The position numbers and the translations under genes were made by a program. The notes below the pieces were generated by a model. That model ran no database searches. It saw only the letters and a program-made list of their open reading frames with translations, and was not told the DNA's origin. This document shows, one piece after another, positions 110 through 56,878 of a stretch of DNA of 56,878 nt. How positions within the stretch are numbered: the first letter of the stretch is position 1; each line of letters begins with the position of its first letter. The DNA is from Pseudomonadota bacterium (lineage in GTDB: Bacteria > Pseudomonadota > Alphaproteobacteria > UBA828), in NCBI GenBank assembly GCA_027624955.1, contig JAQBTG010000023.1, forward strand, positions 1-56,878, read 5' to 3'.

Positions 110-343
110 CTAGGCAGTGGGGCGGGTCATTCGTGCCACGTGCCAGCGGCGAAATGCGATGACGGCCCAAATGCCCTCGGCAATCAAGAATGGGTACGAA
201 TCGATCAGATAAGCATAGACGGCCGCAAGCGCACACCCCGCCGCAAAACTCGCGAGAAAAAATGCACTGCGTTTTTCGAGCGCGTAGCTCGTGACCATGA
301 TCACGATCGCGATTACTCCGAGAATTTCGATGGGTTGGTTCAT
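110..343 (-). CDS. Small membrane protein at the end of the MerR operon (YgjV-like)
   Basis: This 77-residue protein is mostly hydrophobic, with about three closely spaced membrane segments (roughly residues 5-20, 26-46 and 51-65) and a short basic, Arg-rich C-terminus. Its ATG overlaps the stop codon of the MerR-family gene by 4 nt (ATGA), so it is probably translationally coupled and belongs to the same operon. The pattern resembles small YgjV-like inner membrane proteins, but the similarity is only in general character and I cannot give it a function. Because it is the last gene of a metal- or redox-type operon, a supporting membrane role is possible (inference). A longer frame on the same strand at 69-389 is an out-of-frame shadow. 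Nothing recognisable lies between base 1 and this gene. Confidence 0.6.
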   Translation of the reverse strand: MNQPIEILGVIAIVIMVTSYALEKRSAFFLASFAAGCALAAVYAYLIDSYPFLIAEGIWAVIAFRRWHVARMTRPTA

Positions 344-735
344 GACGGTTCGAACCGAGGGTCCGCCTCAGCTCGTTTGACGCACTCATTCAGGCTTGCA
401 CATTCGCAGGTGAGGAGTGCGCTGAGGACGCGATCGACCCGCCGCAAGTCGCTGATCTGCTGCCGGACGGCGGCCTGTTTCGCTTCGGCGAACGGCTTCC
501 ACATGCCCGCCGGACCTGGGTCCTCTGCGTAACGTTCGAGCAGTGATTTGGTATCGGCGAGTGAAAAACCTGCGGCCTGCGCCAGCCGTACGAACTGCAG
601 TGTCACCAGGGCTCGCTCATCAAACTGTCGTCGGCCGGAGACGCGGCGTTGCTCCGCGATGAGACCCATTTTCTCGTAATAGCGGATTGTAGATGCCGGC
701 ATGCTGAGCTGCCGGGCAACGTCTCCGATCTTCAT
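340..735 (-). CDS. MerR-family transcriptional regulator with a C-terminal Cys cluster
   Basis: A 131-residue MerR-family activator. The N-terminal winged helix is clear (residues 1-70: MKIGDVARQL, then STIRYYEKMGLI, then GRRQFDE). A dimerisation helix follows at about residues 80-108. The C-terminal loop has Cys110, Cys112 and Cys118 in a C-x-C-x5-C pattern, which fits a metal- or redox-sensing MerR protein. The Cys that mercury MerR proteins carry near residue 80 is missing (the segment reads LLERYAEDPG), so mercury should not be assumed to be the inducer. The gene overlaps both its neighbours by ATGA. It sits inside the operon it probably controls, and a matching operator is found at 1384-1414. 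Such regulators twist promoters with overlong spacers into an active shape, which fits the 19-bp spacer seen there. Confidence 0.9.
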   Translation of the reverse strand: MKIGDVARQLSMPASTIRYYEKMGLIAEQRRVSGRRQFDERALVTLQFVRLAQAAGFSLADTKSLLERYAEDPGPAGMWKPFAEAKQAAVRQQISDLRRVDRVLSALLTCECASLNECVKRAEADPRFEPS

Positions 736-1019
736 ACCTGAGACTCCCTGCGTCTCGACCGCATACGCCGAAGTTTGAAAACCATTAGCAACGTGCCACC
801 CAATACGGCAAGCACCATCCCGCCAATTTCAAGGAGTGAGGTGGGTGCAAACGCCGCGGTTCCTGCGCCCAACCCACCGATGCCAACAAAGGCGAGAATG
901 ATCGGTACCTCACACGCGAAGAGTGCCATTACGCCGAGCACGATGCCCGCCACTCCGGTCCGCTTTATCACGCTCCCTGTGGCAGATCGTCCGCCACTCA
1001 AACTTGGAGCCTTTCTCAT
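732..1019 (-). CDS. Small two-helix membrane protein, MerF/MerT-like
   Basis: A 95-residue protein with two predicted membrane helices (about residues 22-48 and 62-82), separated by a Gly/Ala-rich turn and ending in a very basic tail (KLRRMRSRRR). Size and layout match the small mercury transporters MerF and MerT. The first helix carries FACEVPIIL where MerF/MerT usually have a vicinal Cys pair, so only one Cys is present. It lies second in a MerR-controlled operon, after a protein with a Cys-Cys motif, and overlaps both neighbours by 4 nt. A role in moving a soft metal or thiol-reactive compound across the membrane is inferred from layout and context only. Confidence 0.6.
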   Translation of the reverse strand: MRKAPSLSGGRSATGSVIKRTGVAGIVLGVMALFACEVPIILAFVGIGGLGAGTAAFAPTSLLEIGGMVLAVLGGTLLMVFKLRRMRSRRRESQV

Positions 1020-1348
1020 TGTCCTATGGCCGCGTCTGCGAATCTATCGAGTGTTATCTGCGCCTCGGGTGGTCCCTCGATCGTGAGAATCAGGCCGTCG
1101 ATGGGCGGTGCGAGTGTGAAAGTCAGAAAGCCACAGCACTGACGCTCCAAGCGGATGAAGCTCTCCACGCGCGATCTCAGCGCGACGCTATCGGCGAAAG
1201 TCAGTCTCAGGCCGCTGTCCATCCGCTCGCCGTCAAGAATATGTGGCAGCAAATCCTTGCGCGCCATTGCCCGACGCTCCCTGAATTCCTCGTCTGTGAG
1301 CGAGCAGGTGATTTCTGCGGTGCCTGCGGCGCGCATACTCTCTTCCAT
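1016..1348 (-). CDS. Cys-Cys motif protein, first gene of the MerR-controlled operon
   Basis: A soluble 110-residue protein with no signal peptide or membrane segment. It has Cys15 in ITCSLTD and a vicinal pair, Cys71-Cys72, in ERQCCGFLTF. I recognise this type from memory as an uncharacterised protein often found beside MerR regulators and mercury transporters in proteobacteria. I do not know of an assigned activity. The vicinal Cys pair plus a distant Cys could bind a soft metal such as Hg(II) and hand it to or from the membrane protein encoded next (inference). The ATG at 1348 follows a GGAG ribosome binding site 9 nt upstream. The predicted transcript starts about 30 nt before it. Confidence 0.7.
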   Translation of the reverse strand: MEESMRAAGTAEITCSLTDEEFRERRAMARKDLLPHILDGERMDSGLRLTFADSVALRSRVESFIRLERQCCGFLTFTLAPPIDGLILTIEGPPEAQITLDRFADAAIGQ

Positions 1349-1383
1349 GGCATTGTTCTCCAGATATCAATGAGGGTCTCACC

Positions 1384-1414
1384 ACACTACCACTTAAAGC
1401 ATAGTTTAAGTCAA
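1384..1414 (-). promoter_or_regulatory. MerR-type promoter and operator
   Basis: On the minus strand a -35 box TTGACT (1414-1409) and a -10 box TAGTGT (1389-1384) are separated by 19 bp, the overlong spacer typical of MerR-activated promoters. Between them lies a perfect inverted repeat ACTTAAA-N6-TTTAAGT (1392-1411). It drives the operon beginning at 1348. Confidence 0.85.
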
Positions 1415-1947: not shown

Positions 1948-4203
1948 TTATATTTTTTGACACCAGAACTGATACATACCCCGGAACGTATCGGGATTCT
2001 TGAATTCAAACTCGTGCCACAGTTGCAGGGAGATCAGATCGCCGCCGCTTGGGTAAGAGTCTTTAAATTTTCTCAGGATTTTTTGATTATGAATAGTGAA
2101 GCCCAGAAACTTTAGTCCGAGTTCCCGCAGGGCCTCATCGATCCCGATAAGCGTAAAGCGATGTTCTTGAACATGAAAAAGCAGATCGCGACATTCACTT
2201 AAGTTGAAGAAATCTTTCATTTTGAAAATTTCCGCCATCACTTGATTGCCGTCTTTGGCCTTCGTTATGATGTCCCGCCGACATCGGCGAATGTCGTCGG
2301 GAGACGTCGTATATCCATTCTCGGCAATCAAGCGGCGTCCACTGACGATGTGCTGTCGCGCGATCTCGCTGTATAGGCCAATATTCATCAGACCCCCCGG
2401 GCGCAAAAGCTTCATCAGAACGCGCCAGCCCGCCAACGGGTCGTCCAGATGGTGAAGCACGCCAATGCATTCGATAAGATCGAATTGCCGCCCAAGATTA
2501 CCCAGTTCCATAATGTCCGCTTGCACGTACTCGATGTTCTTAACGCCGAGCTCCTCGGTCTTACGCCACGCATAGGAGAGACTGCTCAGGCTCAAATCCA
2601 CGGCGAGCACACGGGCGTTCGAAAACCTGGATGCTGTGCTCAGGGCATGCTGGCCCGTGCCGCAACCTGCCACCAGGATTTCCGGACTCTCGGGAGACTC
2701 ATAATCTCCTAGATCGAGGCGGAGTGGGGCGCGCAGCAATTCTGCGCCAATCGTTTTTCCTGTTTCCCGTAAGCCTGTATTGATCCATCGCGGATATGGG
2801 TTTTCCTCATATTGCTCACGAACCAACTGAGAAACCGGATTTTGAATGGACGTCAGGTTGACAATTTGAGAGCGCAGAACCTGCTCTTTAAGGGGTTGTG
2901 ATATTTGTCGCTCAATGACGCCGCTGATGGCTCCGGTCCATTCCCGCTCGCTCAATTCCCCAGCCCACGCAAAACCATACAAGGGCCTGTAGGCGCCCAA
3001 CGCAGCAACCAAGGATGCCGGCACGTCCTGTGTCTTTTCGACCAGCGTCGCAATCCGTTGCTGAAGCTGCTCAACAACCGCCTTTTCTTCTTCGGTCTCA
3101 TTAAAAACATACTTATTCGTAAAACATTGAAGAGCCAGGGCTGCCGAAAACGGCAAGCTCTTTTCACACGTCTTCGCCGACATCGCCTCTTGAGACATGG
3201 CGCGGCGTAGATGTGTGAGCATTCGTTCAATTTCCAGGTCATGGATGGGGCTCAGCCCCATGACCCGAAGAAACAGAGGAATTGCCGACAACCGTTCTGC
3301 GAGGCCCCCGTATGCAATGCCAGTCTCCATATCCTCACTGCCCGTCAATCCTATGATCGCTGAGAAATCCGGGTTATGGCGAAGTGCCGAGAGGATTGGT
3401 TGAACGACGCGGATCGGACGCACCGTGGGCTTATCGAGTACGAGCAATAGATCTCGCCAGAGATCATCATCAATAGAAGTGAGCGAAAGATATTCCAGAG
3501 ATTCCGCAAAACCGGCCCAGAACAAATCGCTCCGGGGATTGAGCGCAATGGCACGGCGGTAACATGCGAACGCAACATCCGGTTTGCCCTGGGCCTGGAA
3601 GGTCGTGCCAAGATTATTGTGCGTTTCGGCCAAATCGGGCCTGATGGCTAGGGATTGGTGAAAACTTGTCACCGCCTCATCCAGCATTCCTAGGTCCAGG
3701 AGCGCGTTGCCAAGGTTGCTATGCGTTTCGGCGTTGTCGGGATTGATGGCGAGGGCCCTGCGGTAGCATTCTACGGCCTCGTCCAGATCTCCCAGTTCTT
3801 TGAGCGCAATACCCAGATTATTGTGCGCTTCGGCGTAGCCGGGATTGACGGCGAGGGCGTTGCGATAACTCACGACAGCCTTGCCCCTCTTGCCCAGTTC
3901 TCGGAGCACAACCCCGAGGCTGTTGTGCGCCTCGGCCAAGTCGGAGTTGATGGCGATGGCCTTGGTAATGAGATCAACGGCAATGCCGTTTTTACTTTCT
4001 TGATGGGCGATCACGCCGAGCAAATGCAGGGCGTCGGGCTGATCGGGGTCGGCCCGTAATATGCTTTGATAAATTTTCTCGGCATCAGGCAAGCGGCCCA
4101 CCGTGTGATGCTGAATGGCGAGATCTAGAGCTTGCTTAATAGTAAGCGTCTGTTGTTCAGGCGCTGTGCTGTTTGATTGCAGAGGAATCATAATTGTCGA
4201 CAT
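1948..4203 (-). CDS. TPR repeat protein fused to a class I SAM-dependent methyltransferase
   Basis: About 751 residues. The N-terminal part (about residues 20-225) contains at least five tetratricopeptide repeats with the typical A-x-x-x-L-G-x-x-L and Y-x-x-A-L/I-x-x-x-P spacing, of the kind found in O-GlcNAc-transferase-like proteins. A helical linker follows. The C-terminal half has the segment EENPYPRW (about 466) and a Rossmann methyltransferase with motif I ILVAGCGTGQH (about 509), an acidic end of strand 2 (AVDLS), and IECIGVLHHL as motif IV. It should transfer a methyl group from S-adenosylmethionine, with the TPRs holding a protein or glycan substrate; the substrate is unknown. A GTG at 4257 would add 18 residues. 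I prefer the ATG at 4203 because the TPR-family pattern begins soon after it, though neither start has a good ribosome binding site. Confidence 0.85.
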   Translation of the reverse strand: MSTIMIPLQSNSTAPEQQTLTIKQALDLAIQHHTVGRLPDAEKIYQSILRADPDQPDALHLLGVIAHQESKNGIAVDLITKAIAINSDLAEAHNSLGVVLRELGKRGKAVVSYRNALAVNPGYAEAHNNLGIALKELGDLDEAVECYRRALAINPDNAETHSNLGNALLDLGMLDEAVTSFHQSLAIRPDLAETHNNLGTTFQAQGKPDVAFACYRRAIALNPRSDLFWAGFAESLEYLSLTSIDDDLWRDLLLVLDKPTVRPIRVVQPILSALRHNPDFSAIIGLTGSEDMETGIAYGGLAERLSAIPLFLRVMGLSPIHDLEIERMLTHLRRAMSQEAMSAKTCEKSLPFSAALALQCFTNKYVFNETEEEKAVVEQLQQRIATLVEKTQDVPASLVAALGAYRPLYGFAWAGELSEREWTGAISGVIERQISQPLKEQVLRSQIVNLTSIQNPVSQLVREQYEENPYPRWINTGLRETGKTIGAELLRAPLRLDLGDYESPESPEILVAGCGTGQHALSTASRFSNARVLAVDLSLSSLSYAWRKTEELGVKNIEYVQADIMELGNLGRQFDLIECIGVLHHLDDPLAGWRVLMKLLRPGGLMNIGLYSEIARQHIVSGRRLIAENGYTTSPDDIRRCRRDIITKAKDGNQVMAEIFKMKDFFNLSECRDLLFHVQEHRFTLIGIDEALRELGLKFLGFTIHNQKILRKFKDSYPSGGDLISLQLWHEFEFKNPDTFRGMYQFWCQKI

Positions 4204-4784
4204 CAGACAATAGATTGATTGAGTTATCGTACGGTCGAACGACAAGTGCCGCGACACCTAAATAAGATTGTCCACTCTGGACAGGCGCTCGGCTTTATCC
4301 GCAGCCTAGAAAAGCACACCGATCACGTTGTGCAAAGATTCTATCAAGAGCATCTCACTATAAATTGGTTAAATTAAAATTAATAAATCAAGTGCCCGAT
4401 TGCCGAGCAATGAGTAAATATGGGTAGTAAGCGGTTCCGTCCCGCTGGCTGTATTGTCATCGGAATCTGAATTTGGCGTGCCTTCAATTAGGATACACCG
4501 GGTGCCGTCAACTGCCTGCCGTCAGCACCCATGGGATACATTAAGCTAATTGGAAAACGGAGTTCTCATTCGAGATTTCTACGAAACCGTCATACTCGGC
4601 CCAAGCACGTTTCCCCGCCAAAACAAGCGAACAGGTCACGCGCCGCGAAGGCGAATTGAGGCGGGATACGTCGATAGCTTGAGCTGCTTGTGAGGGCCGT
4701 TCAACCAAGCTCGCGCGCCTTCCGGCGGGCGCAGGCGTGGCAACAACACCGCCGTTCGTCGTATCGCTAGTTCCGATATTCAGC
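4204..4784. other. Intergenic stretch between the TPR-methyltransferase and cupin genes
   Basis: AT-rich DNA (about 4320-4400) sits in front of the TPR-methyltransferase gene and probably holds its promoter, but I see no convincing -35/-10 pair. On the minus strand a stop-free frame runs from about 4785 down to TAA at 4543-4541 (about 75 codons, segment VTCSLVLAGKRAWAEYDGF). It has only an internal TTG as a possible start and no clear ribosome binding site, so I do not call it a gene. It could be a decayed fragment or the chance product of GC-rich DNA. Confidence 0.4.
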
Positions 4785-5421: not shown

Positions 5422-5994
5422 ATGCGTTACGCTGCGGACCACAAACAGAAAACGCGCGCGCAGATTATCGCCAGTGCACTCGCCGTGTTCGGTGAATCTG
5501 GTTACGAAAAAGCCACGATCGAGGATGTCATGGCCCATGCGGGTTTAACGCGCGGCGGCTTTTACCGGCACTTCCGCAGCAAGGAAAAATTGTTCGTCGA
5601 AGCGATTTTAACCGGCGCCACGGAAAAAGACTATTTGCCGCCGGCGCGATACCGTTCCATGACGGCGAACAATTTTGAGGCGTTCATAACCGGCTATGTC
5701 GGCGACAAGCATTTCAACAATAAGAACAGTCCGTGTCCGCTATTCGCTTTTCCAAGTGACGTGTCGCGAGGAGGACCGGAGCTCCACAATGCGTACGAAA
5801 AAGTCGCCCGTTCGATCGCGGAGAACCTGGAAAGCTACATCACCGTGCCGGATCGGGCCGAACGATCGCTTGCCGCGCTGGCAATGATCGTCGGCGCGAT
5901 GGTTATCGCCCGCAGCGTCGAGAGTTCAAAGCTTGAAAAGACCATCCGCGCGGCGTGCATCAAGTATGCCAAGACACTCGGCGCAACCAATTGA
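5422..5994 (+). CDS. TetR/AcrR-family transcriptional regulator
   Basis: A 190-residue regulator. The N-terminal helix-turn-helix is typical: KTRAQIIASALAVFGESGYEKATIEDVMAHAGLTRGGFYRHFRSKEKLF, residues about 10-58. The remainder is a helical ligand-binding and dimer domain. Its segment CPLFAFPSDVSRG resembles TetR proteins of the group that controls short-chain dehydrogenase or xenobiotic genes (inference). The start at 5422 is set by AAGGAGG 7 nt upstream; the open frame extends 35 codons further up but without a ribosome binding site. It is divergent from the secreted cupin gene and probably controls that gene and itself through the palindrome at 5356-5373. Confidence 0.92.
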   Translation: MRYAADHKQKTRAQIIASALAVFGESGYEKATIEDVMAHAGLTRGGFYRHFRSKEKLFVEAILTGATEKDYLPPARYRSMTANNFEAFITGYVGDKHFNNKNSPCPLFAFPSDVSRGGPELHNAYEKVARSIAENLESYITVPDRAERSLAALAMIVGAMVIARSVESSKLEKTIRAACIKYAKTLGATN

Positions 5995-6240
5995 CCCGCT
6001 CAAACCGCACTTCAATAGCCTGTTGCGGGCAGTCGCAAAAAAGAGGAGGCGGCGGGCCGATCAGCGGCAGGTCCTTGCCGAAGAGGTTGTGGCATCCGAG
6101 ATCGGTGCCGTTGTCAGGCTCCAACAAGACATTAACCGAAGCTGATGTCATGACGCGCGGTCCATCGCCGTTATAGCAGCTTGGCTGACGACACCGCGGG
6201 GTTGTCGATGGCCGCGCCGGGGCGCGTGTCTCTAGGGTGT

Positions 6241-6684
6241 TTAGCCGTCGCTTTCTGAATTAGGCACGGCGGCGGCGCGACGTTTCGAGCCCAATCCAAT
6301 TTGCTTGGCCAGTTGGCTGCGCTTCTTGGCGTAATTCGGGGCGACCATTGGGTAATCGGACGGCAGGCCCCATTTTTCACGGTATTGCTGTGGGGTGAGC
6401 CCGTAATGGGTGCGCAGGTGACGCTTCAGCATTTTCAGCTTGATGCCATCTTCCAGGCAGATTAGGTAATCCGGCGTGATCGACTTTTTGATCGATATCG
6501 AGGGCCTGGCCGATGCCTCGCTAGGCCCTTGAGCGGCGCTTTGTCCAGCGCGGGAAAAGCTCTCATAAATGTTTCGAATGAGGTCCGGAAGTTCGGAAAC
6601 GGAGACCTTATTGTTGGAAACATAAGCGGCCACAATGGAACCGGTCAGCGCAACAAGTGATTCAGTACTATTATTTTCTACCAT
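6241..6684 (-). CDS. MucR/Ros-family zinc-finger transcriptional regulator
   Basis: About 147 residues. The N-terminal region (LTGSIVAAYVSNNKVSVSELPDLI) is the MucR/Ros oligomerisation part. The C-terminal finger runs CLEDGIKLKMLKRHLRTH, then LTPQQYREKWGLPSDYPMVAP, which is the family signature. The second Cys of the classical C2H2 finger is Asp79 here, giving Cys76-Asp79-His89-His93, a variant known among MucR/Ros relatives. These proteins are AT-rich DNA-binding silencers of surface polysaccharide, motility or virulence genes in alphaproteobacteria. I chose the ATG at 6684 because homologues begin with this V-E-N-x-S-T type sequence; an upstream start at 6720 adds an atypical hydrophobic stretch. 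The gene stands alone, and the 246 bases downstream contain nothing recognisable. Confidence 0.92.
   Translation of the reverse strand: MVENNSTESLVALTGSIVAAYVSNNKVSVSELPDLIRNIYESFSRAGQSAAQGPSEASARPSISIKKSITPDYLICLEDGIKLKMLKRHLRTHYGLTPQQYREKWGLPSDYPMVAPNYAKKRSQLAKQIGLGSKRRAAAVPNSESDG

Positions 6685-56535: not shown

Positions 56536-56878
<343 letters not shown>

Follow-up and report, generated by a model that had tools for sequence, protein, structure and literature searches.

A recurrent four-gene unit linking a SoxR-like MerR-superfamily regulator without the first cluster cysteine to an unnamed three-cysteine protein family

To which signal does a MerR-superfamily operon respond when it carries small cysteine-bearing proteins and an over-long promoter spacer, but no reductase? 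The question is raised by the left end of the window analysed here, a stretch of 56,878 nucleotides that represents one entire MAG contig (G000:C23) from an assembly of 84 contigs, where four genes (110-1348, minus strand) lie behind a single MerR-type promoter (Table 1). The ORF coordinates reproduce the compact architecture of the original prediction, with the Cys-Cys protein gene followed by those of a first small membrane protein, the regulator and a second small membrane protein, and with a 4-nt ATGA overlap at each of the three gene junctions (1016-1019, 732-735 and 340-343). The operon shows a GC content of 59% against 57% for the window and is not an outlier. Elsewhere, the window comprises a 769-aa protein (1948-4257, minus strand), which reads as an array of tetratricopeptide repeats with a methyltransferase-like domain behind it, and the start of a 16S rRNA gene (56536-56878, plus strand) running off the right contig end.

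Table 1. Features of the four-gene unit, listed in the direction of transcription.
Feature	Position	Strand	Description
Promoter/operator	1384-1415	minus	TTGACT 1414-1409, 19-bp spacer, weak TAGTGT 1389-1384, dyad 1411-1392
Cys-Cys protein gene, 110 aa	1016-1348	minus	ORF; no Pfam/NCBIfam/PDB sequence match
MerF-like small membrane protein gene, 95 aa	732-1019	minus	ORF; profile comparison with MerF
SoxR-side MerR-superfamily regulator gene, 131 aa	340-735	minus	C110-x-C112-x5-C118, W79
YgjV-like small membrane protein gene, 77 aa	110-343	minus	PF10688 match below cut-off

MerR-superfamily activators act by distorting long-spacer promoters (PMC9909328), and the promoter described earlier for this unit is recovered here with its perfect 7-bp dyad, ACTTAAA-N6-TTTAAGT. 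The window contains a single copy of the operator pattern, whereas 0.05 would be expected in shuffles at up to three mismatches; a looser pattern, TTGAC plus any 7-bp dyad, occurs twice versus 0-2 in shuffles and is not significant alone, so that the significance of the operator derives from its conservation between genomes and not from the looser within-window test. The pattern CTTGACTTAAA-N6-TTTAA is also found upstream of the Cys-Cys gene in three other genomes (G024, G111 and G143), and a search of the 385 genomes of the class sample disclosed 16 exact matches versus a single one for the reversed control. Eight of the 16 correspond to Cys-Cys loci, that is, to eight of the nine Cys-Cys carriers of the sample, the ninth (G400) displaying a MerR of a different type. 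Another match precedes a genuine SoxR gene with CIGCGCLSLKSC (G144), and the E. coli soxS/soxR intergenic region contains CCTCAAGTTAACTTGAGG in the same register as the window operator, which shares with the SoxR operator both the 19-bp spacer and the register. In contrast, the consensus of the mercury MerR operator, TCCGTAC-N4-GTACGGA (PMC1526738), differs from the window dyad. Matches in G047, G094, G190, G210 and G304, all lying more than about 1.5 kb from any recognised MerR-type gene, are probably due to chance or unrelated, and were set aside. At the G144 locus (L041:1501-2800), the operator and the SoxR gene are followed by a gene for a Cys-rich 212-aa protein with CNCSYGCPCQF near its start.

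The NCBIfam scores of the regulator for SoxR, MerR and CueR (63.9, 63.0 and 62.2 bits, respectively) are near-equal and cannot decide its family by themselves, the value for the SoxR model (TIGR01950), although the highest, falling far below the cut-off of 116.9. The alignment with E. coli SoxR, a redox-sensing [2Fe-2S] activator, is gap-free from the preceding helix and superimposes C110, C112 and C118 on C122, C124 and C130, and W79 on W91. The cluster ligands of SoxR comprise Cys119, 122, 124 and 130 (PMC9909328); the window regulator preserves three of the four cysteines of the C-x2-C-x-C-x5-C motif, with Leu at the position of C119, and this Cys is missing in all eight regulators of the group, the relatives showing Leu, Ile or Gly instead. 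Comparison with the other two characterised types highlights clear differences: (i) of the MerR set Cys82, Cys117 and Cys126, the counterpart of Cys82 is absent; and (ii) of the CueR signature (Ser77 and C-x7-C followed by P-I-[IL]), the spacing is shared by C110 and C118, but an additional Cys lies between them and both P-I-I and a Ser at the Ser77 position are lacking. The earlier observation that the regulator has no Cys near residue 80, and hence no MerR mercury site, stands, a trait that SoxR displays likewise; its description as a mercury-type MerR minus one Cys is not supported. Within the MerR family, the Cys register and the operator group the protein with SoxR, as does the tree at the support given below, and the mercury-like label given to the operon has to be changed.

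The phylogenetic tree joins the eight regulators to four SoxRs with support values of 92/92, or 84/93 when the Cys-loop and Trp columns are omitted, both below 95% bootstrap; in this tree, SoxR is the nearest characterised neighbour of the window regulator. Descent from SoxR is thus favoured, not proven, by sequence comparison, supported by the operator at eight of nine carriers and before a genuine SoxR, by the gap-free Cys register, by the Trp aligned with W91 and by the tree. Profiles built from either half of the eight regulators rank the other half above every SoxR, CueR and MerR tested, by a modest margin; a profile scan of 347 genomes places the eight at 194-209 bits and the next protein at 97, a gap inflated by the eight being training members. 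The 22 next-best proteins examined are all full SoxRs or CueR/MerR types, none with C-x-C-x5-C lacking the first Cys, a combination that occurs, among the proteins examined, beside Cys-Cys genes only. A difference in scope accompanies the difference in ligands: SoxR regulates soxS, whereas the local operon of the window regulator includes the regulator's own gene.

A SoxR-type register and operator would also suit a redox or electrophile stress unit, in which a cluster whose fourth ligand is not Cys, or a thiol/disulfide switch formed by C110, C112 and C118, would still sense oxidants and the Cys-Cys protein would serve as a thiol-repair factor or redox carrier. The genome of the window contains no SoxR above the cut-off, and the redox-related genes beside distant relatives of the Cys-Cys protein, described below, also favour such a role. 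On the other hand, the loss of the first cluster ligand from every one of the eight regulators and the retention of a separate, normal SoxR in two other carrier genomes (G111 and G257) argue against it, and the company of the family, with its carriers, ACR3 and merB as well as membrane partners resembling Mer proteins, fits metal(loid)s better; we consider the redox reading unlikely.

The distribution of the unit bears on its completeness. The Cys-Cys gene is present in three of 60 relatives, the window genome included, and absent from the five other genomes of the genus and the 15 others of the family; it is found in nine of the 385 genomes of the class sample, again counting that of the window, and in one further genome of the phylum sample, the genome samples covering part of the class. 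This sporadic spread suggests horizontal transfer of the unit. The four genes recur in the same order in G024 and G111, with different flanks (to judge from the sequences, one has an RND-adaptor-like gene there, the other a gene like that of a cytochrome P450), whereas G143 comprises the Cys-Cys gene, the regulator and the YgjV-like gene without the MerF-like one. In these three genomes the unit stops at the YgjV-like gene, and unrelated genes come next. Since the unit recurs in G024 and G111 between unrelated flanks, it seems to need no gene beyond these four. A second arrangement, with the regulator divergent from the Cys-Cys gene, is displayed by G257, G028, G163 and G030, and a YnfA gene follows in G257 (PF02694 above the cut-off) and, by reading, in G028 and G030.

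These neighbourhoods weigh upon the possibility that the window preserves an ordinary Hg(II) resistance operon cut by the contig edge, with merA, merP or merT to the left of base 1. Such a truncation might be suspected from the mere 109 bp between the YgjV-like gene and the left contig edge, from the remote MerF likeness of the membrane protein and from one relative of the Cys-Cys protein fused to a Mer-transporter-like segment; moreover, a MerR-superfamily regulator, a long-spacer promoter with a dyad and a small Cys-bearing membrane protein are common to the window operon and the mer operon. However, MerA, MerP and MerT are lacking in the operon, and no mer counterpart was found for the Cys-Cys protein. 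The lack of a reductase, pointed out in the original prediction, extends to the whole window and, for MerA matches above the curated cut-off, to the 84-contig assembly. The regulator and the operator, as described above, are not of the mercury MerR type. Because the conserved unit ends at its fourth gene in the relatives, a merA further on would not be part of it; a hidden merA is unlikely, and we regard a truncated mercury operon as very improbable.

The Cys-Cys protein is the most distinctive component of the unit. As anticipated, it is under-described: comparison with Pfam, NCBIfam and PDB sequences returned no match, and no described family covers it. Of the two outcomes that the original prediction named as refuting it, neither came to light, the conserved unit of the relatives stopping at its fourth gene. 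A search of viral contigs disclosed no relatives, and nothing was found in the open-access literature on this family or on a SoxR without C119. The protein contains three cysteines, C15, C71 and C72. An alignment of 21 members, drawn from Alpha- and Betaproteobacteria, Actinomycetes, Bacteroidota and Halobacteria, shows C15, E68, C71 and C72 in every sequence (21 of 21), and R25 in all but one. The topology predicted by AlphaFold2 from a two-sequence alignment is α-β-β-α-β-β-α, with moderate confidence (mean pLDDT 77.8). Residues 1-13, which adjoin C15, show pLDDT below 50, and we therefore make no claim that the three cysteines meet in space. Foldseek searches with the predicted fold gave nothing at E ≤ 0.001. 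The fold of the arginine-repressor C-terminal domain provided the best rows of the structural comparison (Z 7.8, rmsd 2.7, 76 aligned residues), within the range commonly seen, and was discarded; likewise, the hypothetical protein of an Acidiphilium merR-hypothetical-merA locus proved not to be a member of the family.

The two small membrane proteins show weaker relationships. Profile comparison of the MerF-like protein with MerF yields a probability of 53% (E 1.4e-4), and its two relatives give sub-threshold matches to MerE, MerTP and MerF. Nevertheless, the protein itself has no match to the Pfam or NCBIfam MerF models, one relative reaching 8.1 of 50 bits with NF033565. Its only cysteine, C36, in agreement with the single Cys reported before, lies in the motif ACE[LV]PI, where MerF has C-C-x-T-P; both are small membrane proteins in which the first hydrophobic stretch has, close to its end, a Cys and, three residues later, a Pro, but the first helix of MerF carries a vicinal Cys pair and the window protein C36 alone. 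The protein may function as MerF does, but is no member of that family by the tests applied. Its profile finds two further weak matches only in the class. The YgjV-like protein scores 16.6 bits against part of the PF10688 profile, below the gathering threshold of 23.5, and is conserved in three relatives, with 64-69% identity to relatives; it is also present in G143. No plasmid relatives of either membrane protein were disclosed by tblastn.

Beyond these close relatives, the Cys-Cys family is accompanied by a variety of genes, and its link with metals is deduced from the annotation and the family models of these neighbours. The loci comprise those of plasmid relatives (i-v) and one in the genome G593 (vi): (i) Rhodococcus, with the Cys-Cys domain fused behind a MerR and followed by an SBF carrier or YnfA; (ii) Cupriavidus and Nitratireductor, where the gene is accompanied by a MerR and an SBF carrier and, in Cupriavidus, also by a redoxin-domain gene; (iii) Adhaeribacter, with ars genes including a true ACR3 (443 bits, cut-off 283); (iv) Rhizobium, with MerR, thioredoxin and CcdA genes beside the Cys-Cys gene; (v) haloarchaea, where all five loci viewed display a helix-turn-helix regulator and an SBF or Na+-dependent carrier, and two of the five a merB-family gene (MerB matches above the Pfam cut-off); and (vi) G593, where a fusion protein carries, C-terminal to the domain, a membrane segment that contains ACGVCCVLPF and is only weakly similar to MerC and MerF. 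The modules of Rhodococcus, Cupriavidus, Nitratireductor, Rhizobium and haloarchaea have in common with the window unit the same Cys-Cys family, its invariant residues and an adjacent or fused regulator of the MerR or helix-turn-helix type, but their regulators belong to different lineages, in many of which a Cys lies near residue 79, and their membrane partners differ. Throughout these loci it is the Cys-Cys domain that stays the same, whereas the membrane partner is interchangeable.

Could the unit serve specifically for the sensing and export of arsenite or antimonite, or of methylated arsenicals? AfArsR binds As(III)/Sb(III) through three cysteines in a short stretch (PMC11212059), to which the three-Cys loop of the regulator bears a likeness that we take as an analogy, and the genuine ACR3 of Adhaeribacter, together with ACR3-like carriers beside other relatives, would fit such a function. 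The ArsR with ACR3, ArsB or ArsC that characterises ars operons is, in contrast, not found among the four window genes; most of the neighbouring SBF carriers fall far below the ACR3 cut-off, the merB neighbours point equally to mercury, and nothing arsenical accompanies the three complete units. We consider this narrower case, a sub-case of the more general metal(loid) reading, rather doubtful.

The more general reading, to which we give an about even chance, is that of a self-contained, probably autoregulated unit in which a SoxR-derived regulator would govern the sensing and handling of a thiophilic metal(loid). The thiophilic part is supported by the company of the family, namely ACR3/ars genes, SBF carriers, merB, thioredoxin/CcdA and the fusions to MerR or to a CC-containing segment. 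The regulator would be an activator seated on an over-long promoter, whose occupied C110/C112/C118 loop would re-phase the promoter elements by DNA distortion; without C119, this loop would most likely bind one soft ion through its thiolates rather than a normal [2Fe-2S] cluster, arsenic, antimony, mercury or organic forms of these being the candidates. Once induced, the Cys-Cys protein could bind the same species through C15, C71 and C72, acting as a buffer or carrier, and the MerF-like protein could pass it across the membrane; induction would also supply more regulator and the YgjV-like protein, to which we would assign an accessory role. The sequences themselves show the genes and their junctions, the operator, the invariant cysteines, the SoxR register and the recurrence of the unit, whereas the ligand, its binding, and the transport with its direction are deduced. 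Several points count against the metal(loid) reading: beside the three complete four-gene units (the window, G024 and G111) nothing indicates a particular metal; the company of distant relatives may be inapplicable to the lineage of the window; the SBF carriers of that company mostly score far below the ACR3 cut-off; the grouping with SoxR does not reach 95% bootstrap and the NCBIfam scores are near-equal; and the regulator could conceivably hold a cluster whose fourth ligand is not a Cys.

The regulator type and the promoter logic are already known; the apparent novelty resides in a SoxR-side regulator without C119 tied to an unnamed three-Cys family. A bolder proposal, held tentatively and judged less probable than not, is that a SoxR lineage turned into a three-thiolate sensor of metalloids or soft metals, losing one ligand and keeping its operator, and controls new three-Cys carriers of bacteria and archaea combined with interchangeable exporters. 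The family is absent from the Pfam, NCBIfam and PDB sequences searched, yet it extends over bacteria and haloarchaea with invariant cysteines and steady metal or thiol company. The regulator, a natural SoxR-like protein short of one cluster ligand whose likely promoter has been located, makes it directly testable how a MerR-superfamily sensor exchanges a redox cluster for a different ligand; a response to metalloids, should there be one, would turn it into a new biosensor part.

Several of the distant loci show a noteworthy organisation. Two plasmids of one strain of Rhizobium acidisoli carry the MerR/Cys-Cys/thioredoxin/CcdA module, which is thereby present twice (L009:4725-6791 and L014:3806-5413). 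On haloarchaeal plasmids, the merB-family gene, the SBF carrier, the helix-turn-helix regulator and the Cys-Cys gene are adjacent (L013:1952-4315 and L015:2778-5099), with a 4-nt overlap between merB and the Cys-Cys gene in L013. The fusion gene of G593 (L034:6394-7116) is accompanied by a divergent MerR-type gene at 5829-6296.
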